From Salinicola aestuarinus (GTDB lineage: Bacteria; Pseudomonadota; Gammaproteobacteria; Pseudomonadales; Halomonadaceae): a stretch of DNA of 64,000 nucleotides. The stretch lies in assembly GCF_003206645.1 (NCBI RefSeq), contig NZ_PZJP01000008.1, forward strand, positions 169,512 to 233,511, written 5' to 3'. Both the position numbers and the translations under genes were made by a program. Numbering within the stretch: the stretch's first letter is position 1; every line of letters begins with the position of its first letter. The notes beneath the pieces are model-generated. The model ran no database searches. It saw only the letters and a program-made list of their open reading frames with translations, and was not told the DNA's origin. Shown in pieces: positions 16,285-28,570 of the stretch.

Positions 16285-16860
16285 TTAGCAGGTGCCGATC
16301 CTTAGATCGCCTCTGAGCGCGGCACCGGGCTCACAGCGTGCGGTGCTTGCTTGCAATGTGCCGGTGAACCTGGCGGTTGACGCAATATGAACCCGCTTTT
16401 CTACCACGATGTCGCCCGTTGCTTCCCCATGAAGCTCGAGATACGCGGCAGTGACCTGCGGGCCGGCGACGCCACTGTTTAAAAGCGTCAGTGGCTGGCC
16501 ATCAACGACGACTCTGCCGTTGATACGCCCCGCGATATGTATCGCATCGCCGGTGGTGATATCACCCTGGATGCGCAAGCGCGGGCCCAGGTAAGTCGGA
16601 GACATGTCAGTCTGAGCGGGTTTCGAGTCCAGCGCCGCGGTGACAGGCGTTGGTACCACCGCGGTGCCTCCGGCTTCGCGCGGGCTCGAGAGGCGCTGAA
16701 CGACGGCTCTTTGATCCTTGGGCGGATTGGTCGAATCGACTTGAGTGGGAGAAGGGTTATCCCGGATCTCCTTTTTCGGTAACGATCGGCGGTAGCCATC
16801 GATCAGCAGTATGCCGATCGCGACCAAACCGGCGAGAAGCCCCCAACTTGCGAGTCCCAT
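16285..16860 (-). CDS. Membrane-anchored bactofilin-domain protein
   Basis: 191 aa from the ATG at 16860, which has AGGAG five bases upstream; the frame is open 18 codons further but without a ribosome site. The N-terminal helix (about 4-22) ends LLIDGYRRSLPKK, resembling the membrane anchor of ZipA-type proteins, and is followed by a Pro/Ser/Thr-rich linker. The C-terminal half is a short beta-helix of the bactofilin (polymer-forming cytoskeletal) type: GDAIHIAGRINGRVVVDG and repeated G-x-I/V turns to the end. Bactofilins form non-nucleotide filaments that scaffold cell-wall or envelope processes. It is divergent from the second bactofilin at 17083. The anchor resemblance is by eye only. Confidence 0.75.
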   Translation of the reverse strand: MGLASWGLLAGLVAIGILLIDGYRRSLPKKEIRDNPSPTQVDSTNPPKDQRAVVQRLSSPREAGGTAVVPTPVTAALDSKPAQTDMSPTYLGPRLRIQGDITTGDAIHIAGRINGRVVVDGQPLTLLNSGVAGPQVTAAYLELHGEATGDIVVEKRVHIASTARFTGTLQASTARCEPGAALRGDLRIGTC

Positions 16861-17082
16861 TGCATCTCCTGCGAAGTGCAGTGACATTACACGTTCGGCT
16901 AAGTCGCGCCGCATGATGTTGCTATCGACTCTGTCTCGCTAATCTTGAGATCAGCGATGAGAGGACCGAACAGCGCATCAGCCCGGCCTGGTATCAAGAT
17001 GCCCTAATAGCCGCCGATCAACAAAGGATAGTACCGCCCGAGGTAAGGGCGGGCTCGACACCTGCGAAAGCGAGAAGACATC
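16861..17082. promoter_or_regulatory. Divergent promoter region between the two bactofilin genes
   Basis: 222 bp between divergent starts; it must carry both 5' regions. An AGGAG serves the minus-strand gene, and GAGAAG at about 17070 serves the plus-strand gene. No confident -35/-10 pair or operator could be picked by eye. Confidence 0.4.
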
Positions 17083-17610
17083 ATGTTCCAGAAAGCCCGA
17101 GGCGACGTTGCCACCGCGCCGGATGCCAGCGAGAGCCCAACCTCCAAGGGTAGCCATCCGAGCACGAAAGAGCGACTCACGGGGCCTTCGCGCATCGGTG
17201 CCGCGACCCTCGTCCGAGGTGAAGTGTCAGGCGAAGAAGATCTGTTTATCGAAGGGCAGGTGATCGGTGACATCACTATCCCCACGCATCTCATTAAGGT
17301 CGGCGCCGGCGGCAGCGTCGAAGGACAGGTAATCGGCGCGGAAATTACGATCGAAGGACGCATTGAAGGCAAGCTGATTGCGTCGCAGCGGATCACCTTG
17401 AAAGCCGGCGCGGTCGTGTACGGCGATTTACATTCGCCTAACTTGATGCTGGAGGAGGGTGCGATATTTCATGGAACCATCGATATGGATCCGGACCAGA
17501 AGACATTAAGTGATAGTTTTGCTAGTGACGTGCCTGAAAACATACCGTTCAATGTCGATAAATCTTCTCTCCCCACGTCTCGCGAGGGAGACTCTGAAGA
17601 CAGCGCTTAG
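17083..17610 (+). CDS. Bactofilin (soluble polymer-forming cytoskeletal protein)
   Basis: 175 aa. A disordered polar N-terminus (about 1-40) precedes a beta-helix core built from short G-rich repeats: LVRGEVSGEEDLFIEG, QVIGDITIP, SVEGQVIGAEITIEGR and EGKLIASQ. The pattern is that of DUF583/bactofilins (BacA, CcmA). A polar tail follows from about 145. Known members assemble into membrane-associated filaments that localise peptidoglycan enzymes or shape cell poles and appendages. The gene is divergent from the anchored bactofilin, which suggests the two may co-assemble. Confidence 0.9.
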   Translation: MFQKARGDVATAPDASESPTSKGSHPSTKERLTGPSRIGAATLVRGEVSGEEDLFIEGQVIGDITIPTHLIKVGAGGSVEGQVIGAEITIEGRIEGKLIASQRITLKAGAVVYGDLHSPNLMLEEGAIFHGTIDMDPDQKTLSDSFASDVPENIPFNVDKSSLPTSREGDSEDSA

Positions 17611-18390: not shown

Positions 18391-21300
18391 CTACCTTTTT
18401 TTAAAGATATAGAAGTCCGCAAACGACGTGTTGTTGGGATCACTTGTCGCTGTCATGGGGTAGCGATTGGGAATAAATTTAAAAAGTGTCCAATCAGGGG
18501 CATGTTTTTCAATCCAGTCGGTAAACCTGCGTTTTTTTACATGCGCGTCTAATGTGTTTTTGTTCTCGTTGGCGGAGTATATGATGCAAAACCTTTCCGA
18601 TGATGAAAGCAATCTCTCCATGTATTCATGGTAAATTTTTTCATCGATCAAGTGGTATATGACATCCAGTGACAAAGTGAGGTCAGCGGATAGAGGGTGT
18701 TGATCAAAATGGTCTAACGTCATGAAGCTCTTTGAGCTGTCAAGCTCAAATTTTTGCCTGCACTTTTCAACGGCTTTTGATGAAATGTCTACCCCGGTAT
18801 AAGAGTCGTAACTAATGAGCGAAAGCTGGTTCCCGTCGCCACAGCCAAACTCGATGACATTGCCAACCTGGTTCTCTTTAACGAAGCCGTTGATGATCTC
18901 CGCCTTGAACATTGCTAAGCGCCCGTAGGAGCCTGCGCCAGAGTTTCCGCCACGCTGATAACGTTGTTCCCAATATTTTCCTACTGAAAAAGAGGGCGCA
19001 TTGCCACCCTGTTTTTGGTGGAGCCATGGCATCCCGTAGAAGCCTATTAGCCGGCTAATATTTTTGTCATTTCTACCATTCGTAATATTTTCGACCCACA
19101 AGCTTGAGGCGTTGAGATTGGGCCATTCTATGATGTCGAATCCTTTTCCCGAACTCCTGACTTTACTGCTGTTGAGAGATGCCATCCAGTATAGCCATAC
19201 ATCATCGGTGCCCGGCGATAGCTCCATGAATTTGTCAATGTCAGTAACGTCAGGATGAAACACGCCCGGTGGGTATAAAACACCGCCACAGCCGGTCGGG
19301 AAAGTCAAACCATCGACTTCCTCGTCTTTACTGACTTCCCATTGCCACTGGCGGTAAGGTGAGGGTTTGCCGCGCTTATCAAGAATAATTTTGTGCGCCC
19401 GATGCGCGATAATTGACTTTCGGTCCCCATCCCAGGAGTCAAGGAGTGATTCAAGCCATTCGGGGGAGTAGTAAACGTCATCGTCAGCCGTCACGACAAA
19501 GCTGTCAGGTCGCTCTTTCAGCGTGGGGATGATTTTTTTATATGATCGAATATTCTCGCAAAAACGAATTTCTACCCCGTAATTTCTTAGCTCCCACACC
19601 CTTGTAGGGAGCTCTTCTTTCTCTTCTTCGGCTATCCAGAGAATCAAAGCGTCCGGCTTTACCTTCTGCAGCAATAGACTGCGTAAGGTCAGATGAAGAT
19701 TTTCAAATCGCTTTGTGTACGACGTTAAGGACACCACCAGGTTGCCCGGCAGAGAATGACTGCTCTTGATTGCTGATAGCGGCGCTTTTTCTATTATATT
19801 CTTTAAATCATTGATGTCTTTAGCCGTGGTTTGGGAGCTTTTGTGGATCGACTTGGGCAAGTAGCTCTGGCCTTCGAGAAATGCTATTGCTTTCTCATGA
19901 TTCACGTCGGCCAGCAGCTCGAATGCCATATCATGCGCGGCAAATACGGCGCTTAAAATGAAAGCTAGTTTTACCTTCTCTTTGTCTGCGAGTGTCGCCA
20001 TACGTTCCTGGCTTGGCAAAAAGAGAATGTCGGCACTCTCTTGCTCGCTCGCACAGGGAGTGCGCTCGTTCAACTGATCGGGTAAATGGCTGTAATGTTT
20101 AATATTGTGAAAGCGATAAAACCGGAACCCGTTGCGGCTTGCCCAGTGCTGTAGTTCAGCCAGGCTGGGCTGCTTCTCGTGCGTTAATTGAAAGGGAATG
20201 CGGGCCTGAATTAGCAGGGTCTTTTCGAGGTACTTCTTGCCGTTTTCCAGAACGGCCATGGCATCGCTGAATTCGTCCAGAATCAACCAGTCGAGGCTTT
20301 CCAACCCCGTAATGCTATCCAGGGCGATCGAGTTGATCGGCAGCTCGGCGATTGCCTGGCTGCCAAGATGGTGGCGCTCAGGCAGCTTTTCCACCGGTAG
20401 CGGTTTGAGGGTACTGCTCATTTCTGGCGCAACGCAGGCGTGTAGCGTTGCCGGGCTTCCGTCGCCCAATAGGGCATGAGGAAAGACTTGAATAGTATCG
20501 CTGCCTTCGTACTGCTTGGGGTCCTTGACTTCGCTGGCCGGGTCAAAGGCGACGATACCGAACGCGCCTGTTTGGGCCATTTGCTCAGCCAGGCCAGTTT
20601 TGATCAGACTGGCTCGATTATCGAGGACGATGACTTTGCCCTTCAACTGCCATTTGAAGTCGTCGGTCAAGTGGAGGCGTGTGGCTGACGCTTCAGTTCG
20701 TGAGTCGTTACCCGCTTTGGATTGGATGAGGTGCTCCAGGGAGCGGTCAACTTTCAGCTCGGGTTTCATCGCACGGCTCGATAAGCGCTGTTGATGGCGC
20801 TTACGCTGCGATAGCGTGAAATCCTTATTGCCGGCTTTCCCACGAACGAGCGGGGTTAGGGCGTGCGTAAGACGCTCGGTGGCGCGGTCAATATGATGCT
20901 CCCGTTCCCCGATACTGAAAGCCTGGGCGACATACTTCTGATACAGCGTTGGGTCATCGAAGAAAGCCAGTACCGCGTCGAAAAGTGGCTGTAGCTCTTG
21001 CTCGCTAAGCAGGGGCTGGTAGGGCTCTTCGTAACATCTTTCAGGGAAATCAAAGGCGATACCTGCATCTCCGACCATCTCGGGCATGCCGCCGCGATTG
21101 GTGATGAGCGCCGGAATGCCGTTGAGCATGGCCTCTGCCAGTACTCGACCGGAGCTTTCCCACCACAGACTTGGCGCGATCAGCACACGGGCGCGGCTAT
21201 AGGGCCCGCGCATGTCACTGGTATTGGCCGTGACAGTCACGTTACTTAGCGTACTCCGCTGTTTGCCCATTTTGTGCGTGGTTTCGCGAAGCACGGCAGC

Positions 21301-22056
21301 CCAGTCGGCGCGGGCTTCCACGACTTCCAGCTCGATCTCTGGTCGCTCGCACTCTAACCGCTCTGCAAGCTGGACAAAGATGCTGGCGCCTTTCTGCCAG
21401 CTGGGGTTAACGAAGAGCAGCCGTCGGCGCTCGTGGGTCTCAGCGACGAAGCTAGCAGGCGAAATGAATTTGCCTACGGGTTTGGAGGCAAACCCTACCT
21501 GTTTACGGTACATATCAGCGGTAGCCTGGCTGTCGCACAGGATCAAGTCCACGTCACGGCACCAGCGGGACGACTTGTAATTCCCATTCGCTAAATAGGC
21601 AACAGTGGCAATGCCTCGGTCTCGCGCTTCGTCGGCGATTAGCATATCCAGCGTCTGGCCGCCGTAAAACCAGATTACGTCCGGCTTGAAGGTATCTAAC
21701 TCGTAGATGTACTGGCTATACCAGAGTCCCTCTTCATGGGTGGTGAAATGATTGCGGTTGTAGCTGTAGCTAACGACCAACTGATGGGTCAAGGGGCCAT
21801 CTTCTGCTTCGATGAGCTGATGCTGATGACTGTCAAGATCCGGGAACAGTTCCTTAAGACGACCCGTGCCTTTCGGATTGTCGAAAACCGTCGCTCCTAG
21901 AATCCGAATTTCGTAACCGCTGGCCGCAAGCTGCATGAGCATTTGGCGCACACTCATGCTGGCGCCGCTGGATGTATCCATCAGGCAGAATGGGTTAGCC
22001 CATAGTAGCCGGGGCTTACGCTTATCAGTGGCAGAAACAGCATTCTTCTTGACCAT
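18391..22056 (-). CDS. Multidomain glycosyltransferase/methyltransferase, probable flagellin-glycan enzyme
   Basis: 1221 aa with four readable parts. (1) About 15-415: a GT-B glycosyltransferase of the GT4 type, with WESSGRVLAEAMLNGIPAL (E-x7-E motif) and then NRGGMPE. (2) About 470-660: a Rossmann-like segment resembling FkbM-type methyltransferases (GAFGIVAFDPASE ... LDWLILDEFSDAMAVLENG), without a clear SAM glycine loop. (3) About 770-1010: a GT-A-like domain beginning LVVSLTSYTKRF, with a DDD metal motif at about 855 (TADDDVYYSPEW). (4) About 1030-1221: a class I SAM methyltransferase with motif I EFGCGDGNQ and GVDISSKAVEKC. Large glycosyltransferases beside fliC (for example Fgt1 of Pseudomonas syringae) glycosylate flagellin, and here the gene ends the flagellin array on the same strand. 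Parts 3 and 4 are visibly AT-richer than parts 1 and 2. The substrate is inferred from context only. Confidence 0.8.
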   Translation of the reverse strand: MVKKNAVSATDKRKPRLLWANPFCLMDTSSGASMSVRQMLMQLAASGYEIRILGATVFDNPKGTGRLKELFPDLDSHQHQLIEAEDGPLTHQLVVSYSYNRNHFTTHEEGLWYSQYIYELDTFKPDVIWFYGGQTLDMLIADEARDRGIATVAYLANGNYKSSRWCRDVDLILCDSQATADMYRKQVGFASKPVGKFISPASFVAETHERRRLLFVNPSWQKGASIFVQLAERLECERPEIELEVVEARADWAAVLRETTHKMGKQRSTLSNVTVTANTSDMRGPYSRARVLIAPSLWWESSGRVLAEAMLNGIPALITNRGGMPEMVGDAGIAFDFPERCYEEPYQPLLSEQELQPLFDAVLAFFDDPTLYQKYVAQAFSIGEREHHIDRATERLTHALTPLVRGKAGNKDFTLSQRKRHQQRLSSRAMKPELKVDRSLEHLIQSKAGNDSRTEASATRLHLTDDFKWQLKGKVIVLDNRASLIKTGLAEQMAQTGAFGIVAFDPASEVKDPKQYEGSDTIQVFPHALLGDGSPATLHACVAPEMSSTLKPLPVEKLPERHHLGSQAIAELPINSIALDSITGLESLDWLILDEFSDAMAVLENGKKYLEKTLLIQARIPFQLTHEKQPSLAELQHWASRNGFRFYRFHNIKHYSHLPDQLNERTPCASEQESADILFLPSQERMATLADKEKVKLAFILSAVFAAHDMAFELLADVNHEKAIAFLEGQSYLPKSIHKSSQTTAKDINDLKNIIEKAPLSAIKSSHSLPGNLVVSLTSYTKRFENLHLTLRSLLLQKVKPDALILWIAEEEKEELPTRVWELRNYGVEIRFCENIRSYKKIIPTLKERPDSFVVTADDDVYYSPEWLESLLDSWDGDRKSIIAHRAHKIILDKRGKPSPYRQWQWEVSKDEEVDGLTFPTGCGGVLYPPGVFHPDVTDIDKFMELSPGTDDVWLYWMASLNSSKVRSSGKGFDIIEWPNLNASSLWVENITNGRNDKNISRLIGFYGMPWLHQKQGGNAPSFSVGKYWEQRYQRGGNSGAGSYGRLAMFKAEIINGFVKENQVGNVIEFGCGDGNQLSLISYDSYTGVDISSKAVEKCRQKFELDSSKSFMTLDHFDQHPLSADLTLSLDVIYHLIDEKIYHEYMERLLSSSERFCIIYSANENKNTLDAHVKKRRFTDWIEKHAPDWTLFKFIPNRYPMTATSDPNNTSFADFYIFKKR

Positions 22057-22354
22057 GGGGCAACTCGCAGAAGGGTGGCAATGTGCCTAGTCTACTGCGG
22101 GCTTTTCTAATCCAAACTGGAGAATGCCCAGCGAATTCGCGAGGTATTCGCGGCATCGCATGTTGGAGGATGGTACTCGCGGTGGGGCAGAGGGGCGCAG
22201 GCCCGAGAGAAGTGGGCAGTAGGCGACTATCATAGGCCGCGTTGATGGCCTCAGTGTCCCGCCAAGGCAGGCCTTGCGAAACTAGCGTGCCATAATAGAA
22301 AACGGGGCCAATTGGCCCCGTAGGTCGTCTACGATGTTACTGGCTCTCTCACTA
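22057..22354. other. Intergenic region between glycosyltransferase start and first flagellin stop
   Basis: 298 bp. It holds the terminator of the flagellin gene at 22355 (22302-22321) and must hold the promoter of the minus-strand glycosyltransferase gene. No sigma-28-type motif was found here, so that gene is probably not transcribed in the same way as the flagellins. Confidence 0.5.
22302..22321 (-). terminator. Rho-independent terminator of flagellin copy 1
   Basis: Perfect 20-nt palindrome ACGGGGCCAATTGGCCCCGT. On the minus strand it is followed by TTTCTATTATG. It lies about 33 nt past the flagellin stop at 22355. Confidence 0.85.
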
Positions 22355-23212
22355 TTAGCCCAGCAGCGAGAGTACCGACTGCGGCGTCTGGTTCGCCTGG
22401 GCCAGCATGGAGGTGCCTGCCTGCTGCAGAATGTTGGCGCGCGTCATATTCGACACTTCCTTCGCGTAGTCCGCATCCTCGATCCGTGAGCGGGCCTCGG
22501 AAAGGTTGGTCGAGGTAGTGGAGAGGTTGTCGATCACTGAATCGAAGCGATTCAACGTCGCACCCAACGTTGCCCGGCTGGTGTCCAGGGTCTTGACGGC
22601 GCTATCAACCGAGTCGATCAGGCTCTGGAAGTTAGAGTGGGCGCCGCTGCCGCCACTGGACGCGAACGTGGAACCCGACATGCCGCCGCCGGAAAGGCCG
22701 AGGCCACTGACGGTTGCGTCCAGCTTGGTGACTGCGATGACATCGTTATCGGTCGTGTTGGAGCCGATCTGGATGTTGAGTGTAGCGCCGCCACTATCGT
22801 TTAGCAGGTTAGTACCGTTGAAATTGTTGCTGCCGGCGACACGGTCGATTTCTGCGAGGCGCTCGTTGATCTCGGTCTCGATAGCCGCACGGTCTTCAGC
22901 GGTGTTGGTGTCGTTGGCGCCCTGAACGGCGAGCTCACGGATACGCTGCAGGTTGTCGTTGACCTGGTCCAAGCCACCTTCCATGGTCTGGACGAGCGAG
23001 ATGCCGTCACTGGCATTACGGCTCGCCTGGTCCATCCCCTTGATCTGGGCCGACATCTTGTTGGCGATCGCCTGACCGGCTGCGTCGTCCTTGGCGCTGT
23101 TGATGCGCAACCCGGATGAGAGACGTTCCTGAGCCTGAGCCAGCATGCTCTGCGACTTGTTCAGGTTGTTCTGGCCGATCATGGAAGTGATGTTGGTGTT
23201 GATAACGGACAT
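22355..23212 (-). CDS. fliC: Flagellin, copy 1 of the array
   Basis: 285 aa. The N-terminal D0/D1 part starts [18 protein letters not shown] and includes [19 protein letters not shown]. The C-terminal D1/D0 part ends [13 protein letters not shown]. Both are almost identical to the four neighbours. Only about residues 140-205 differ; here this segment is rich in Gly, Ser and Thr. The protein is short, without a D3 domain. It is exported by the flagellar apparatus and forms the filament. SD GAGGATC precedes the ATG. The gene has its own sigma-28-type promoter (23287-23313) and terminator. Confidence 0.97.
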   Translation of the reverse strand: MSVINTNITSMIGQNNLNKSQSMLAQAQERLSSGLRINSAKDDAAGQAIANKMSAQIKGMDQASRNASDGISLVQTMEGGLDQVNDNLQRIRELAVQGANDTNTAEDRAAIETEINERLAEIDRVAGSNNFNGTNLLNDSGGATLNIQIGSNTTDNDVIAVTKLDATVSGLGLSGGGMSGSTFASSGGSGAHSNFQSLIDSVDSAVKTLDTSRATLGATLNRFDSVIDNLSTTSTNLSEARSRIEDADYAKEVSNMTRANILQQAGTSMLAQANQTPQSVLSLLG

Positions 23213-23286
23213 GAAAATGATCCTCGGTGTTTATTGGCCTGGGAAAAGGGGGCCGGGTCAGCGGCGCTCAGTCGCCGTTAGTATTA
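23213..23286 (-). other. Structured 5' leader of flagellin copy 1
   Basis: Two short hairpins can be drawn: CGGCG/CGCCG (23262-23266 with 23273-23277) and GGCC/GGCC (23236-23239 with 23251-23254), followed by the SD GAGGATC. The same order of elements occurs in copies 2, 3 and 4 with different loop lengths. Confidence 0.5.
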
Positions 23287-23313
23287 TTAACGGCCGTCTT
23301 GGTCGATTCTGTA
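23287..23313 (-). promoter_or_regulatory. Sigma-28-type promoter of flagellin copy 1
   Basis: Minus strand: TACAGAAT, 11 nt, GCCGTTAA. This compares with the enterobacterial FliA consensus TAAAGTTT-N11-GCCGATAA. Element order and spacing match the other flagellin copies. Confidence 0.8.
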
Positions 23314-23363
23314 GCTGCCGGTCGCTCTATATTTGTGACACTTTGTGTTCGCCAGAACTGAGA

Positions 23364-23383
23364 ACGGGGCCTGGTGGCCCCGT
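23364..23383 (-). terminator. Terminator of flagellin copy 2
   Basis: ACGGGGCC stem with a four-base loop, 34 nt past the stop at 23417. The T-tract is poor (TTCTCAGTTC on the minus strand), so termination may be weaker than for the other copies. Confidence 0.75.
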
Positions 23384-23416
23384 CTTTGACGTCACTGGCG
23401 GTAGCGCTAGTCGCGA

Positions 23417-24298
23417 TTAGCCGAGCAGAGACAGGACAGACTGTGGCGTCTGGTTCGCCTGTGCCAGCATGGAGGTACCGGCCTGCTGCAGGATGTTGGC
23501 GCGCGTCATGTTAGAGACTTCCTTCGCGTAATCGGCGTCCTCGATGCGTGAGCGGGCCTCGGAGAGGTTAGTCGTCGTTGTTGCGAGGTTGTCGATCACT
23601 GAGTCGAAGCGGTTAAGCGTCGCGCCCAGCGTTGCGCGGTTGGTATCCAGTGTCTTGACAGAGCCGTCGACTGCGTCGATCAAATTCTGAAAATCGCCGT
23701 GTGTGAGGGCGCCGGAGGCACCGGTGCCTGTCAGCACGCTCGAACCAGAGACCACGGTCAGGGAGCCATTTGAACCGCTGACCAGGCCGAGGTCGCCGTT
23801 GGTTGTCGCATCAACGGTTTTGACGTCGATGACGTCTTCAGTTTCGGTGTTGGAGCCTATTTGAATGCTCAAACTGCCGCTGGAATTCAGTAGGTCAGTA
23901 CCGTTGAAATTATTGCTACCTGCGACGCGGTCGATCTCGGCGAGGCGCTCATCGATCTCAGTTTTGATCGCTGCGCGATCTTCTGCCGTGTTGGTATCGT
24001 TAGCGCCCTGAACCGCCAGCTCCCGGATACGCTGCAGGTTGTCGTTGACCTGGTCCAGGCCACCTTCCATGGTCTGGACGAGCGAGATGCCGTCGCTGGC
24101 GTTACGGCTTGCCTGATCCATCCCCTTGATCTGGGCCGTCATCTTGTTGGCGATCGCCTGGCCTGCAGCGTCGTCCTTGGCACTGTTGATACGCAGGCCG
24201 GAAGAGAGACGTTCCTGAGCCTGAGCCAGCATGCTCTGCGACTTGTTCAGGTTGTTCTGGCCAATCATGGAGGTGATGTTGGTATTGATCACGGACAT
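23417..24298 (-). CDS. fliC: Flagellin, copy 2 of the array
   Basis: 293 aa from the ATG at 24298, which gives the shared [10 protein letters not shown] start with SD GAGGATC. An in-frame ATG five codons upstream lacks that spacing. The D0/D1 ends are the same as in the other copies. The central segment (about 140-210) is Ser/Gly/Thr-rich (GSNGSLTVVSGSSVLTG) and distinct. This is the longest copy. It is a filament subunit with its own sigma-28-type promoter at 24369-24395 and its own terminator. Confidence 0.97.
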   Translation of the reverse strand: MSVINTNITSMIGQNNLNKSQSMLAQAQERLSSGLRINSAKDDAAGQAIANKMTAQIKGMDQASRNASDGISLVQTMEGGLDQVNDNLQRIRELAVQGANDTNTAEDRAAIKTEIDERLAEIDRVAGSNNFNGTDLLNSSGSLSIQIGSNTETEDVIDVKTVDATTNGDLGLVSGSNGSLTVVSGSSVLTGTGASGALTHGDFQNLIDAVDGSVKTLDTNRATLGATLNRFDSVIDNLATTTTNLSEARSRIEDADYAKEVSNMTRANILQQAGTSMLAQANQTPQSVLSLLG

Positions 24299-24368
24299 GG
24301 AAATGATCCTCAATATTTATTGGCCTGGAAAAGGGCCGGTTCAACGGCGTCAGTTGCCGGTATTTCAA
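24299..24368 (-). other. Structured 5' leader of flagellin copy 2
   Basis: CGGC/GCCG (24345-24348 with 24356-24359) and GGCC/GGCC (24322-24325 with 24334-24337), then SD GAGGATC. It is a variant of the leader of copies 1, 3 and 4. Confidence 0.5.
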
Positions 24369-24395
24369 TTAACGGCCTGGCTTTTCGGTTCTTTA
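24369..24395 (-). promoter_or_regulatory. Sigma-28-type promoter of flagellin copy 2
   Basis: Minus strand: TAAAGAAC, 11 nt, GCCGTTAA. Its -35 element is among the closest to consensus (TAAA) in the array. Confidence 0.85.
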
Positions 24396-24440
24396 GCGTG
24401 ATCTTGACGTTCTTGCGCCTACGCTCGGTCGCCAGAACGT

Positions 24441-24466
24441 AAAACGGGGCCCTTCGGCCCCGTTTT
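24441..24466 (-). terminator. Terminator of flagellin copy 3
   Basis: An 11-bp stem AAAACGGGGCC/GGCCCCGTTTT with loop CTTC, 32 nt past the stop at 24499. It is symmetric enough to act on both strands. Confidence 0.9.
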
Positions 24467-24498
24467 CGGTTTGATCTTTGCGGCTTCTGGCCTAGAGA

Positions 24499-25377
24499 TT
24501 AGCCCAGCAGAGACAGAACGGACTGCGGCGTCTGGTTGGCCTGCGCCAGCATGGAGGTGCCGGCCTGCTGCAGAATATTGGCACGGGTCATGTTGGAGAC
24601 CTCTTTGGCGTAGTCCGCATCTTCTATCCGCGAACGCGCTTCAGAGAGGTTGGTCGAGGTGGTGGACAGGTTATCGATTACCGAGTCAAAACGGTTGAGC
24701 GTGGCACCCAAGGTAGCGCGGTTGGTATCCAGCTTTTCCGTAGAGGCATCGATGCCATCGATGAGGTTCTGGAACTCGGTGTGAGTCGCGCCACCTGAAG
24801 CATCGGCGACAATGAACTCACCGCCCGCTACCGCTGCGGCAGTACCACCCGACGTTGCAGCTTCCAGGCCGAGGCCAGAAACCGTCGAGTCTACGGTATC
24901 GACGGTGATGACATCCTCGGACTCGGTGTTGGAGCCGATCTGGATGCTCAGGCTGCCGCTGGCGTTGAGTAGTTCGGTGCCGTTGAAGTTGTTGCTACCT
25001 GCCACTCGATCAATCTCTGCCAGGCGCTCATTGATCTCAGTCGTGATTGCTGCACGGTCTTCGGCGGTGTTGGTGTCGTTAGCGCCTTGAACTGCCAGCT
25101 CACGGATACGCTGGAGGTTATCGTTGACCTGGTCCAGACCACCTTCCATGGTCTGCACGAGCGAGATGCCGTCGCTGGCGTTACGGCTCGCCTGATCCAT
25201 CCCCTTGATCTGGGCCGTCATTTTGTTGGCGATCGCCTGGCCGGCGGCGTCGTCTTTGGCGCTGTTGATGCGCAGCCCGGAAGACAGGCGCTCCTGAGCT
25301 TGAGCCAGCATGCTCTGCGACTTGTTCAGGTTGTTCTGGCCGATCATGGAGGTGATGTTGGTATTGATAACGGACAT
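24499..25377 (-). CDS. fliC: Flagellin, copy 3 of the array
   Basis: 292 aa. Conserved D0/D1 ends. The central segment (about 145-205) is Ala/Gly-rich (EAATSGGTAAAVAGG), and the rest is almost identical to copies 1, 2 and 4. SD GAGGAAC. Its upstream 201-bp intergenic unit is nearly the same as that of copy 4, pointing to duplication of a promoter-gene-terminator cassette. Filament subunit. Confidence 0.97.
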   Translation of the reverse strand: MSVINTNITSMIGQNNLNKSQSMLAQAQERLSSGLRINSAKDDAAGQAIANKMTAQIKGMDQASRNASDGISLVQTMEGGLDQVNDNLQRIRELAVQGANDTNTAEDRAAITTEINERLAEIDRVAGSNNFNGTELLNASGSLSIQIGSNTESEDVITVDTVDSTVSGLGLEAATSGGTAAAVAGGEFIVADASGGATHTEFQNLIDGIDASTEKLDTNRATLGATLNRFDSVIDNLSTTSTNLSEARSRIEDADYAKEVSNMTRANILQQAGTSMLAQANQTPQSVLSLLG

Positions 25378-25447
25378 GGAACTGTTCCTCAGTAAGGATC
25401 TGGCCTAGATGGCCGGCTAGGCGGCGCTTTCATCGCCGGTACTATTA
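25378..25447 (-). other. Structured 5' leader of flagellin copy 3
   Basis: CGGCG/CGCCG (25422-25426 with 25434-25438) and GGCC/GGCC (25402-25405 with 25411-25414), then SD GAGGAAC. Nearly identical to the copy 4 leader. Confidence 0.5.
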
Positions 25448-25474
25448 TTAACGGCCTCGCGTTGCGATTCTGTA
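25448..25474 (-). promoter_or_regulatory. Sigma-28-type promoter of flagellin copy 3
   Basis: Minus strand: TACAGAAT, 11 nt, GCCGTTAA. Confidence 0.8.
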
Positions 25475-25521
25475 GTGTCGATCTCGACTGTTTGATGAAA
25501 ATTAACGACTGATAGAACGTA

Positions 25522-25545
25522 AAATGGGGCCTTTCGGCCCCGTTT
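25522..25545 (-). terminator. Terminator of flagellin copy 4
   Basis: AAATGGGGCC stem with loop TTTC and GGCCCCGTTT (one T-G pair), 33 nt past the stop at 25579. Confidence 0.85.
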
Positions 25546-25578
25546 GTGATGCAGTCTGAATCGTTACCGAGCAAAAGC

Positions 25579-26421
25579 TTAGCCCAGGAGAGACAGAACG
25601 GACTGCGGCGTCTGGTTGGCCTGCGCCAGCATGGAGGTACCGGCCTGCTGCAGGATGTTGGCGCGGGTCATATTCGACACCTCCTTGGCGTAGTCCGCGT
25701 CTTCGATCCGCGAGCGGGCCTCGGAGAGGTTGGTAGTCGTCGTCCCCAAATTATCGATGACCGAGTCAAAACGGTTGAGCGTGGCACCCAGTGTTGCACG
25801 TTCGGTATCCAGCGTTTCGAGGGCGGTATCGACGTTATCGATCAGCGTCTGGAAGTTCGTGTGGGTCGCACCTGCGCCGGACAGAGCTGCTGCAGAACCG
25901 CTGACACCGAGGTTGCTGCTCGTGGCATCGACAGTGGTGACCGTGATGGTGTCGTTGTCGGTAGTGCCGGCGCCGATCTGAATGTTCAGGTTGGTGCCGC
26001 CGCCACTGGCTAGCAGGTTGGTACCGTTGAAGTTGTTGCTGCCGGCGACGCGGTCGATCTCGGCAATACGCTCATTGATCTCGGTGGTGATGGCCGCACG
26101 GTCTTCTGCGGTATTGGTGTCGTTGGCGCCCTGGACCGCCAGCTCGCGGATACGCTGGAGGTTATCGTTGACCTGGTCCAGACCACCTTCCATGGTCTGC
26201 ACGAGAGAGATGCCGTCACTGGCGTTACGGCTGGCCTGGTCCATGCCCTTGATCTGGGCCGTCATTTTGTTGGCAATCGCCTGACCAGCCGCGTCGTCCT
26301 TGGCACTGTTGATACGCAGGCCGGAAGAGAGACGTTCCTGAGCCTGAGCCAGCATGCTCTGCGACTTGTTCAGGTTGTTCTGGCCAATCATGGAGGTGAT
26401 GTTGGTATTGATCACGGACAT
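25579..26421 (-). CDS. fliC: Flagellin, copy 4 of the array
   Basis: 280 aa, the shortest copy. The conserved ends match the other copies. The central segment (about 140-195) is short and Ala/Gly/Ser-rich ([16 protein letters not shown]). SD GAGGAA. It has its own sigma-28-type promoter (26492-26518) and terminator (25522-25545). Filament subunit exported through the hook. Confidence 0.97.
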
Positions 26422-26491
26422 GGAGCTATTCCTCAGTAAGGATCTGGCCTAGATGGCCGACTAGGCGGCGCTTTCATCGCCGGTATTATTA
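26422..26491 (-). other. Structured 5' leader of flagellin copy 4
   Basis: CGGCG/CGCCG (26466-26470 with 26478-26482) and GGCC/GGCC (26446-26449 with 26455-26458), then SD GAGGAA. Confidence 0.5.
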
Positions 26492-26518
26492 TTAACGGCC
26501 TGGCGTTGCGATTCTGTA
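26492..26518 (-). promoter_or_regulatory. Sigma-28-type promoter of flagellin copy 4
   Basis: Minus strand: TACAGAAT, 11 nt, GCCGTTAA, as in copies 1 and 3. Confidence 0.8.
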
Positions 26519-26566
26519 GTGTCGATCTCGACTGTTTGATGAAAATTAGCGACTGTTAGAACGCAA

Positions 26567-26588
26567 AACGGGGCCTTTCGGCCCCGTT
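26567..26588 (-). terminator. Terminator of flagellin copy 5
   Basis: AACGGGGCC/GGCCCCGTT stem with loop TTTC, preceded on plus by AA so that the minus-strand transcript ends in T's. It lies 34 nt past the stop at 26623. Confidence 0.9.
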
Positions 26589-26622
26589 CGTAACGCAGTC
26601 TGAATTGTTGCCGCGCAGAAAA

Positions 26623-27492
26623 TTAGCCCAGCAGAGACAGGACGGACTGCGGCGTCTGGTTGGCCTGCGCCAGCATGGAGGTGCCGGCCTGCTGAAGGAT
26701 GTTGGCACGGGTCATGTTGGAGACTTCCTCTGCGTAGTCGGCGTCTTCGATGCGCGAACGTGCTTCGGAAAGGTTGGTCGAGGTGGTCGACAGGTTATCG
26801 ATGACCGAGTCGAAACGGTTGAGTGTCGCACCCAGGGTCGCACGGTTGGTATCGAGCGTCTTCGTCGCCTCATCAACGCCATCGATCAGGTGCTGGAAGC
26901 TATCGTGTGCTTCCGAACCACTCCCTGTGCCCACAGTGAAAGTAGTACCAGAGATTTCGCTACCGCTTGTGCTTTCTAAGCCAAGCCCCGATACCGTTGC
27001 ATCGATGGTTTTGACGCTGATGACGTCTTCGTCTGCAGTGTTGGATCCGATCTGAATGCTCAAGCTACCACTGTTGTCGTTGAGTAGCTCCGTACCGTTG
27101 AAGTTGTTGCTCTCTGCAACGCGATCAATCTCTGCCAGCCGTTCGTTGATCTCGGTAGTGATGGCCTCACGGTCTTCCGCGGTATTGGTGTCGTTGGCGC
27201 CCTGAACTGCCAGCTCGCGGATACGCTGCAGGTTATCGTTCACCTGATCGAGACCACCTTCCATGGTCTGTACCAGCGAGATACCGTCGCTGGCATTACG
27301 ACTGGCCTGGTTCATGCCAGTGATCTGAGCGGACATTTTGTTGGCAATGGCTTGACCGGCGGCGTCATCCTTGGCGCTGTTGATACGCAGACCGGAGGAG
27401 AGGCGCTCCTGGGCCTGGGCCAGCGAATCCTGAGACTTGTTCAGGTTGTTCTGGCCGATCATGGAGGTGATGTTGGTATTGATCACTGACAT
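26623..27492 (-). CDS. fliC: Flagellin, copy 5 of the array (most diverged, nearest flgN)
   Basis: 289 aa. Same fold and ends, but with changes in the otherwise invariant parts: SQDSLAQ for SQSMLAQ, SAQITGMNQ for [16 protein letters not shown] for VAGSNNF and DYAEEVSN for DYAKEVSN. The central segment (about 145-205) is Ser/Gly/Thr-rich. Its promoter has the most canonical -10 of the array, and its leader lacks the two-hairpin layout of the other copies. It may be the ancestral gene from which the others derive. Confidence 0.97.
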   Translation of the reverse strand: MSVINTNITSMIGQNNLNKSQDSLAQAQERLSSGLRINSAKDDAAGQAIANKMSAQITGMNQASRNASDGISLVQTMEGGLDQVNDNLQRIRELAVQGANDTNTAEDREAITTEINERLAEIDRVAESNNFNGTELLNDNSGSLSIQIGSNTADEDVISVKTIDATVSGLGLESTSGSEISGTTFTVGTGSGSEAHDSFQHLIDGVDEATKTLDTNRATLGATLNRFDSVIDNLSTTSTNLSEARSRIEDADYAEEVSNMTRANILQQAGTSMLAQANQTPQSVLSLLG

Positions 27493-27597
27493 TGTCGCTT
27501 TCCTTTTACTTCAAGAGGGCTATCTGGGCGTAACGCAGCGAGAGTGACGATGAGCTCATTGCGCATTACTGAAACGACACGGTTGCCGTTAGCCCCT

Positions 27598-27624
27598 GTA
27601 TCGGCGATCCCCTCGATCGCTTTA
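27598..27624 (-). promoter_or_regulatory. Sigma-28-type promoter of flagellin copy 5
   Basis: Minus strand: TAAAGCGA, 11 nt, GCCGATAC. The -10 is closer to the FliA consensus GCCGATAA than in the other four copies. The start codon is about 105 nt downstream, giving a longer leader. Confidence 0.88.
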
Positions 27625-27680
27625 ACCGAAAACGAAAAATTACCGTGATTTTTTCTAGGGTTATGAGGTGTTTAGACAAG

Positions 27681-27708
27681 CAAAACCCGCAGCGTGCTGC
27701 GGGTTTTG
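27681..27708 (-). terminator. Terminator of the flgM-flgN unit
   Basis: Perfect 13-bp arms (CAAAACCCGCAGC and complement) with a two-base centre, about 92 nt past the flgN stop. It separates flgMN transcription from the flagellin array. Confidence 0.85.
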
Positions 27709-27799
27709 AGGGGGAGGGCACTGTTCTTGCCGTATGACGCGTGACGGCTCGTTGATTGCGACACAGTGTTTGATGGTATCGCTCCGCTATCAAGCTTGG

Positions 27800-28252
27800 T
27801 CAAGCGCTGGAGCTGATGCCGCCAAACCCTTTATGCAGAGACTTACCCTTGGGCCCGTAGGTGCTGCCGCCAACCGCACGCTGTAGAAAATCGATCGCCT
27901 GCTGATTCTGCTCGAGACGTTGAGAGATGATATGTCCGTTGAGGAGATTGGCCCGGCGGATACTTTCGGCCAGCTCTCGAATGCGCTGCCATTGGTCGAC
28001 GGCATCAGCGGCGATGGCGAGCTCTTCGGCTCCCCGGCTATCTGTCCCCAGGCCCGCCTCGGCCTGGTGCGTCCGTCGCGATGCCTCGATAGCGTCCAGC
28101 GTGTTCAGCGCCATTTGCTTCTCTGAGGCTATCTGGCCCAGCCGCTCGCCATCGATCTCTCCCGCATTCAGATGTTCACGCTCATCTTCCAGAAGCTCAT
28201 TCAGGGCCTCGAGATGGCGTTGCTGTTCAGCGAGAAGGGAGGTAAGCGACAT
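27800..28252 (-). CDS. flgN: FlgN, export chaperone for hook-filament junction proteins
   Basis: 150 aa, almost entirely helical and rich in Leu, Glu and Gln (SLLAEQQRHLEALNELLEDE), as in FlgN. In Salmonella it binds the C-termini of FlgK and FlgL in the cytoplasm and delivers them to the export gate. It lies directly downstream of flgM, the enteric flgAMN order. The family is poorly conserved in sequence, so length, composition and position carry the call. Confidence 0.88.
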   Translation of the reverse strand: MSLTSLLAEQQRHLEALNELLEDEREHLNAGEIDGERLGQIASEKQMALNTLDAIEASRRTHQAEAGLGTDSRGAEELAIAADAVDQWQRIRELAESIRRANLLNGHIISQRLEQNQQAIDFLQRAVGGSTYGPKGKSLHKGFGGISSSA

Positions 28253-28294
28253 GGGGTGTTCCTCGTTACGTGATAGACGTGCCCGGTTTTCGAC

Positions 28295-28570
28295 TTACTC
28301 TTGGCCGAGCTGGGCCTTGACGTCCGCGATGAGACCGTCTGCGATCTTGCTCGTATCGAGTTCGAACTGACCGTCGGCAATCGCTTGACGAATTTCATTG
28401 ACGCGGGCGGTATCGATGTCGCCCTTGTCGTTCAGTCGGTCGATCTGGCTCAGCGTCGTCGTTGAGCTGGGCTGTGGCTGAGAGCCAGCCGCCGTCGCCG
28501 GGCTTTTCTTGGCCTCGACGTTGTCCTGCTGTGTCGGGCGGGTAAGCGACTGCGTGTGATCGATTTTCAT
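28295..28570 (-). CDS. flgM: FlgM, anti-sigma-28 factor
   Basis: 91 aa. The starting MKIDHTQSLTRP and a disordered Ser/Thr/Pro-rich first half are typical. The C-terminal sigma-binding part contains VNEIRQAIADGQFELD and DTSKIADGLI. FlgM holds FliA inactive until the hook is complete and it is exported, so it gates all the sigma-28-type promoters of this window. A sigma-28-type promoter (28711-28737) gives the usual feedback supply. Confidence 0.95.
   Translation of the reverse strand: MKIDHTQSLTRPTQQDNVEAKKSPATAAGSQPQPSSTTTLSQIDRLNDKGDIDTARVNEIRQAIADGQFELDTSKIADGLIADVKAQLGQE

Follow-up and report, generated by a model that had tools for sequence, protein, structure and literature searches.

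A four-domain glycosyltransferase/methyltransferase beside the flagellin genes of Salinicola aestuarinus and the degenerate FkbM module that it shares with relatives at flagellin loci

What does a 1221-residue enzyme do next to an array of flagellin genes, and is its place there accidental? The question is raised by 64,000 nucleotides of Salinicola aestuarinus (contig NZ_PZJP01000008.1, positions 169,512 to 233,511; this whole stretch is called the window), in which a gene at 18391-22056 was originally predicted to encode a combined glycosyltransferase (GT) and methyltransferase that could build and methylate a short glycan on flagellin. Its product has four domains, D1 to D4; its D2-bearing relatives lie at flagellin genes, and D2 has degenerated and been retained while the partners around it were exchanged. 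The gene probably encodes a cytoplasmic, modular flagellin-modifying enzyme, in which D1 would start a glycan, D3 extend it and D4, a predicted S-adenosylmethionine (SAM) methyltransferase, methylate it, with D2 as an adaptor.

18391..22056, minus strand: four-domain flagellin-side glycosyltransferase/methyltransferase gene, 1221 aa; ortholog L003/L107 84 % identical
20767..22056, minus strand: D1, GT4 glycosyltransferase, residues 1-430, E-x7-E at 300-308; Pfam PF00534, structure match 2jjm
19843..20715, minus strand: D2, degenerate FkbM methyltransferase homologue, residues 448-738, the common module of the family; hhalign, signature loss
19018..19794, minus strand: D3, GT-A glycosyltransferase, residues 755-1013, DDD at 858-860; profile and structure matches
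18394..19002, minus strand: D4, class I SAM methyltransferase, residues 1019-1221, EFGCGDG at 1069-1075; Pfam PF08242, structure match NodS

The gene is a single open frame of 1221 codons with an ATG start. The coordinates originally given were correct, and the strand, which had been left out, is minus; read on the plus strand, 18391-22056 is full of stops. In the closest named relative, Salinicola avicenniae, the ortholog is 84 % identical across residues 3-1221, has all four domains and likewise lies directly downstream of a flagellin gene. This ortholog, together with a ratio of nonsynonymous to synonymous substitution rates (dN/dS) of 0.08 across the aligned codons, shows that the frame is not a chance one. 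Among the matches listed from 201 family genomes, all four domains were covered only by the window and its Salinicola sister, and the order D1-D2-D3-D4 is, judged by sequence, rare.

The whole protein was searched against the 201 family genomes (own included), with matches in 140; stretches of up to 20 kb, numbered with L, were then fetched for the listed D2-type matches and for sampled matches of the D3-only and D4-only kinds. At a D2 threshold of 150 bits, 87 open reading frames (ORFs) were found in 87 family loci, own genome not counted. Ninety-one family stretches had been fetched; L129, L140, L209 and L210 (a D1 fragment at a contig end) have no D2 of 150 bits and stand outside the 87, and L166 is counted among them, scored on the canonical copy of a split gene. 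The ORF started at most 500 bp downstream of a same-strand flagellin gene in 79 of 87 cases, with a median gap of 164 bp in these, and at most 5 kb downstream in 86. The one beyond 5 kb, L110, begins near the end of its contig, at a distance of 1.3 kb. Two others, L136 and L166, appear to be the rear parts of split genes, the front parts of which lie 188 and 82 bp from flagellin; these GT41-D2 genes run over two frames in the assemblies (L136:7254-11808, L166:7975-13464). The D2 ORF of L188 is 3.1 kb from flagellin, with a same-strand 982-aa ORF between; short ORFs intervene in L137 (2.8 kb), L155 (1.6 kb) and L208 (0.6 kb), and no ORF of 100 aa does so in L164 (0.9 kb). Of 17 control loci obtained with a comparable search, 13 of them D3-only or D4-only and four of ordinary FkbM type, none had a flagellin gene in its stretch. 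By gene position across relatives, the flagellin link of the enzyme family is strongly supported.

A search of the order matched 18 of 390 genomes, eight of them from this family (own included), eight others strongly and two weakly. The rest of the order gave nine D2 ORFs in eight loci: five within 500 bp of flagellin, two that diverge from a flagellin gene, with gaps of 239 and 249 bp, one at 3.8 kb as the second of a tandem pair, and one at a contig end. Distances to flagellin among named relatives were 86 bp in Bordetella (L010), 218 bp in Achromobacter (L012), 131 bp in an Enterobacteriaceae isolate (L011) and 1657 bp in Marinobacter (L008). At class level, 11 of 369 genomes (own included) matched, two strongly and both in the family; the weak matches fell in 10 places of nine genomes, and the three that were opened (L220-L222) all score as canonical FkbM with our models. 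Outside the order D2 is therefore rare, though it is found at the Bordetella, Achromobacter and Enterobacteriaceae loci.

The module that unites these loci is barely visible to Pfam: residues 440-740 of the window enzyme gave no match, and PF05050 was matched at E 0.016 or worse in 3 of 20 members, the window member having none. Compared by hhalign, a profile of 20 hand-picked D2 rows aligned over 265 columns with 10 canonical FkbM rows (eight fused copies, two stand-alone genes; L220 left out) at E 3.5e-37 and a probability of 99.9 %. Searched against solved structures, the D2 profile gave two chance-level matches; canonical FkbM copies found 2py6, named FkbM, at E 0.24. As a signature we used 13 columns (D-x-G-A...G, F-E-P, K-I-D-x-Q-G-x-E, T-E-V) in each of which at least 8 of the 10 canonical rows agree; these would be the cofactor-binding and catalytic positions. 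The window D2 retains four (D479, A482, P506, D594) and has R481, K486, D505, I592, L593, F596, S597, A599 and R619 at the others. Across 97 D2 rows, 94 retain three to five. Motif I keeps its Asp in 94, the first Gly in 59, Ala in 55 and the last Gly in 3; FEP keeps Glu in 1 (Asp in 95) and Pro in 94; KIDxQGxE keeps K in 1, I in 2, D in 94, Q in 1, G in 3 and E in 1; the Glu of TEV remains in 2. These rows include L166, in truth a canonical FkbM copy, to which the sole K, Q, E and FEP Glu all belong, so that none of the 96 true D2 rows has them. An FkbM-like segment had been proposed here: the homology stands, but with the signature residues lost the enzyme probably does not gain a second methyltransferase from D2. 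On the same grounds, D2 as an ordinary FkbM enzyme with activity was rejected. D2 has invariant residues of its own in 54 rows (D505, G531, G533, D589, P681), and between the window and S. avicenniae its dN is 0.088 and its dS 1.9, near saturation (ratio 0.045). D2 is under purifying selection, not decaying. Several relatives carry a second copy behind D2 that Pfam recognises as FkbM PF05050 (e.g. L136, L147).

Around D2 the chemistry varies. Upstream of it, the 87 family ORFs have GT41 in 57 cases, D1 (GT4) in 18 and neither in 12; no ORF has both D1 and GT41. Tetratricopeptide repeats (TPRs) were detected by Pfam in all five proteins checked (the intact GT41-type family members L125, L130, L147 and L157, plus L008). 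Six of the 12 have a sulfotransferase domain before D2, following TPRs in L137, L145, L154, L161 and L164 and as the sulfotransferase part alone in L155. The five TPR fusions lie at L137:7308-11195, L145:6247-11235, L154:7713-12698, L161:7577-11386 and L164:7453-11220, and some end in a methyltransferase tail. Of the six sulfotransferase ORFs, L137, L155 and L164 are those that stand 0.9-2.8 kb away from flagellin. From their domains, the TPR-sulfotransferase-D2 loci could possibly produce a sulfated flagellin or glycan. In L163 and L167, D2 is preceded by TPRs plus a stretch without family assignment. In L171, L174 and L208, D2 is a solo gene of 302-345 aa. The gene behind it, about 400 aa long, is homologous among the three loci (39-49 % identity); TPRs were found in every copy, and LicD was matched in those of L174 and L208. 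A cytidine triphosphate (CTP)-transferase-like gene comes next in L171 and L208. Phospho-alcohol modification of flagellin is a possible function of these loci. They are flagellin-adjacent, at L171:9029-11580, L174:411-4142 and L208:9602-12325. The twelfth ORF is the split L166.

The tail behind D2 is absent or consists of GT2 domains, GT56, canonical FkbM, a KfiA-like D3 (alone or followed by D4), a sulfotransferase or another methyltransferase. Tails are common to different initiator types, since in Halomonas denitrificans (L007) a GT41-type D2 bears a D3-D4 tail 58 and 62 % identical to that of the window. L216:7872-14909 holds two GT41-D2-sulfotransferase genes in tandem behind a single flagellin gene. 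In a quick D2 tree with support from the Shimodaira-Hasegawa-like approximate likelihood ratio test (SH-aLRT) only, 17 of 19 GT4-type rows form one set (support 100), to which an 18th attaches with support 93, while L124 is unplaced; the GT4-type rows group with 14 GT41-type rows at support 95. The simplest reading of the sequences is that GT4 replaced TPR-GT41 at a constant D2 in the window lineage, once or twice. Flagellin length had medians of 293 and 338 for the GT4 and GT41 types, with overlapping ranges and no clean separation.

Assignment of the catalytic domains by profile and structure recovered all three that the original prediction had named: a GT4-like domain with E-x7-E, a GT-A-like domain with DDD and a class I SAM methyltransferase with EFGCGDG. 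For D1, Pfam, structure and motif agree. The GT1/GT4 match (Glycos_transf_1) covers residues 219-332 at E 1.5e-11 (44.6 bits against a cut-off of 26.4), and the predicted model of residues 1-745 (mean predicted local distance difference test score, pLDDT, 84) superposes on the GT4 structure 2jjm, of GT-B fold, with a VIA Z of 28.4 and a root-mean-square deviation (rmsd) of 3.1 over 330 residues. E-x7-E is a functional motif of GT4 enzymes; here it is ESSGRVLAE, residues 300-308, and both Glu are kept in 25 of 25 D1 rows (duplicates included). Among the Foldseek neighbours of D1 is SdgB, a GT4-type enzyme that acts on a peptide and has entries with bound SD (Ser-Asp) peptides.

D3 and D4 were compared on a predicted model of residues 746-1221 (mean pLDDT 90). 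The Pfam GT2 match of D3, at residues 853-907 (E 5e-4), is below the family cut-off. Its best structural match is the N-acetylglucosamine (GlcNAc)-transferase half of Pasteurella heparosan synthase 2 (PmHS2), with a VIA Z of 20.4 and an rmsd of 3.2 over 229 residues; KfiA gave a VIA Z of 17.2. The D3 profile ranked heparosan synthase B (E 2.6e-4) and then KfiA (2.8e-4) first among solved structures, both weak E-values. By model and profile, D3 shares its fold with the KfiA/PmHS2 GlcNAc-transferase group, its closest solved relatives. This group transfers GlcNAc onto a glucuronic acid acceptor. The alignment took in 24 of 28 D3 rows, in which DDD, the S and last K of SYKK and both D and the W of DDVW are invariant. 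In D4, PF08242 was matched at residues 1068-1140 (E 1.3e-7), and every residue of the EFGCGDG loop except F is invariant in 15 of 15 rows (duplicates included). Its Rossmann fold matches NodS (3ofk, an N-methyltransferase) at a VIA Z of 18.5; because many other methyltransferases score within 2.6 Z units, the substrate class is left wide. D4-type methyltransferases also occur inside proteins of about 1130-1150 aa in L194-L197; L194, which was scanned, has a methyltransferase, a coiled coil and a GT, and no flagellin gene in its stretch. These proteins could be chain-capping enzymes of a polysaccharide.

The presumed acceptors are encoded immediately upstream, where adjacency to a flagellin array had been noted: five minus-strand fliC copies, the nearest 298 bp from the enzyme gene, which lies downstream of the array on the same strand.

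22355..23212, minus strand: flagellin copy nearest the enzyme, 285 aa; Pfam PF00669 3.5e-44, PF00700 1.6e-30
23417..24298, minus strand: flagellin copy, from sequence; ATG start adopted, listed ORF begins at TTG 24313
24499..25377, minus strand: flagellin copy, from sequence
25579..26421, minus strand: flagellin copy, from sequence
26623..27492, minus strand: flagellin copy heading the array; Pfam and sequence
22302..22321, minus strand: intrinsic terminator-like hairpin, between the last fliC copy and the enzyme gene that follows it

The central region is short in all five flagellins, with 24-29 % Ser plus Thr. In the proposed mechanism, D1 would transfer a first sugar onto Ser/Thr of this region, the KfiA/PmHS2-like D3 would add a second, perhaps of N-acetylhexosamine (HexNAc) type, and D4 would methylate the sugar added by D3. 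D2 would be a non-methylating structural or acceptor-recognition adaptor that holds the catalytic parts at flagellin; this role is suggested by its constancy, its lost signature and its occurrence as a solo gene. Substrates, reaction order and sugar identity, like the role of D2, are what we infer from these comparisons. At E <= 0.001, the window genome (3.87 Mb) has no match to GT41, the MptE-like family PF01973, PF05050 or NeuB, and so no rival enzyme of these kinds; RmlD is present. A nonulosonic acid donor is unlikely, given the lack of a NeuB match. A wider idea is offered tentatively, as one possibility among others: D2 might be a flagellin-specific adaptor pseudoenzyme, a dead FkbM methyltransferase by which flagellin is marked as the substrate and into which unrelated chemistries plug for one common acceptor (GT41 or GT4 glycosylation, sulfation by TPR-sulfotransferases, phospho-alcohol transfer by TPR-LicD-type enzymes whose D2 is a separate gene next door), with tails that extend and cap the product.

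O-antigen and exopolysaccharide clusters commonly encode GT4, GT-A and methyltransferase domains, and the enzyme might belong to such a pathway, its proximity to flagellin being accidental. Single-domain D3 relatives lie away from flagellin, and so does L129, the one full-length D1 protein without D2, which has no flagellin within 16 kb and stands beside sugar-nucleotide genes. This explanation is nevertheless very improbable: homologs kept away from flagellin and beside O-antigen genes would be expected under it, whereas 86 of 87 D2 ORFs follow flagellin within 5 kb, and no polysaccharide gene was seen among the scanned window neighbours, which are bactofilins and SulP to one side of the enzyme gene and flagellins with flgN to the other. 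The L129 enzyme may glycosylate another surface protein; L129:4286-13971 holds a D1-like tandem GT4 gene by SapC, a 1485-aa DUF4214 protein and genes of GDP (guanosine diphosphate)-mannose dehydratase type. L198 and L199, also away from flagellin, are partial generic GT4 matches to D1. If flagellin is the target, D2 might still be an active methyltransferase or an altered-site enzyme, giving four catalytic domains. Its strong conservation with the five invariants named above would fit, as would the 59 of 97 rows in which motif I still has its first Gly, but the K, Q, G and E of KIDxQGxE and the later Glu are present in 0, 0, 2, 0 and 1 of the 96 true D2 rows, against 10 of 10 canonical ones, and L136, L141, L144, L147, L159 and L162 carry an additional canonical FkbM copy, as if D2 were unable to do a methyltransferase's job. 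We consider an active D2 unlikely. Little probability is likewise given to a scheme without an assembly line, in which D4 methylates the flagellin protein and D1 and D3 work on separate sites. Flagellin protein methylation exists, in FliB islands (PMC4875605), the fold neighbours of D4 include protein N-terminal methyltransferases besides NodS, and D4 occurs without D3 (L156, L194-L197). Against this, D4 pairs with D3, either fused or as a neighbouring separate gene in Telmatospirillum and Jiella (L051, L039, L064). These neighbouring genes suggest a functional pair with D4 acting on the D3 product, and as the pair persists in these three loci, whose stretches have no flagellin gene, the D3 product is favoured as the D4 substrate.

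Several points weigh against the preferred reading of a modular enzyme with D2 as adaptor. The sugar type is drawn from distant fold and profile similarity, and the D4 proteins without D3 tell against D4 acting on the D3 product. Where motif I still has its first Gly (Arg in the window), D2 could bind SAM. Many D2 proteins carry TPRs, and since it is the TPRs that bind flagellin in FlmG, reading the acceptor could in general fall to them instead of D2; the GT4 type lacks them. By the D2 model, D2 is missing both from L140 (GT41-D3-sulfotransferase), 138 bp from flagellin, and from L009 (GT41, an FkbM Pfam match, D3, D4), which has a flagellin gene 1.2 kb downstream, so D2 is common and not obligatory where TPRs are present. 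One contrast favours D2: the TPR-GT41 protein at L209:9404-12514 has a canonical FkbM domain and no flagellin gene within 20 kb, and may belong to another protein glycosylation system, its genome having two D2 loci as well. Co-transcription of fliC and the enzyme is not a given, because the enzyme gene lies behind the terminator-like hairpin.

GT-methyltransferase fusions beside fliC are already published (PMC4875605, PMC5207246), and the window enzyme is a variant of them. Enterobacterial flagellin glycosylation islands between fliC and fliA hold strain-variable GT41 enzymes fused to S-adenosylmethionine (AdoMet) methyltransferase domains (De Maayer and Cowan 2016, PMC4875605). These resemble the window enzyme as GT-methyltransferase fusions by a flagellin gene, whereas its initiator is a GT4 without TPR and its tail a KfiA-like GT-A plus methyltransferase; the parts of that account on GT41 enzymes do not set apart a degenerate FkbM module. 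In Clostridioides difficile, the GT2 CDR20291_0242 likewise joins a GT and a methyltransferase domain in one protein and is encoded downstream of fliC; mutant analysis shows that it is needed for adding two rhamnoses, and the authors propose rhamnose methylation (PMC5207246). It differs in being GT2-type, with two domains, from another phylum, and with the initiating GlcNAc added by a separate GT1. By this precedent, building and methylating a short glycan in one polypeptide is plausible.

FlmG of Caulobacter is a soluble, modular O-glycosyltransferase of several flagellins, with the TPR part as a separate module that binds them; the sugars are described as added in the cytoplasm, ahead of flagellin export (PMC7591256). 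FlmG differs in its TPR plus GT-B make-up, its 596 residues and its pseudaminic acid donor (PMC7591256); the window genome lacks a NeuB match, and the window enzyme has no TPR family among the 12 Pfam families matched at E <= 0.1. With no TPR match and no GT41 match in its genome, it does not have the TPR plus GT41/GT-B pattern of an FlmG-like protein. Fgt1, Fgt2 and VioT of Pseudomonas syringae, likened here by description and not by sequence, are flagellin glycosyltransferases near fliC that make a short glycan, whose terminal sugar is methylated by VioM, encoded by a separate gene (PMC3927599).

How cytoplasmic O-glycosyltransferases choose flagellin without a sequence motif is the question addressed by these loci; FlmG uses its TPR part (PMC7591256). 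A TPR-less GT4 version at the same type of locus as GT41, sulfotransferase and LicD-type versions amounts to a natural swap experiment, in which D2 is constant and the chemistry varies. Should D2 be the acceptor reader, it might be used for directing modification in harmless halophiles, and the D2 family predicts sulfated and phospho-alcohol flagellins. Our literature search found no paper on the enzyme family in Halomonadaceae or on the degenerate FkbM module, none on LicD or sulfotransferase forms or on sulfated or phospho-alcohol flagellins, and none for Halomonas, flagellin, glycosyltransferase and glycosylation combined.

Beyond the array lie flgN (Pfam) and a flgM-like ORF (by eye). No sigma-70-type site was found within 22000-28400; one window site (27624), upstream of the array-head flagellin copy, fits a sigma-28 pattern. 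On the opposite side of the enzyme gene are two bactofilin genes and a SulP-type transporter (Pfam). The bactofilin pair, at 16285-17610 between the enzyme and the transporter, is divergent (209 aa on the minus strand, 175 aa on the plus strand). A hairpin similar to that of the window was seen by eye in L107, L109, L111 and L112, with a variant in L114, and a short AGTAGACTAGGCA-like stretch directly before the enzyme start recurs in L107, L111 and L112.

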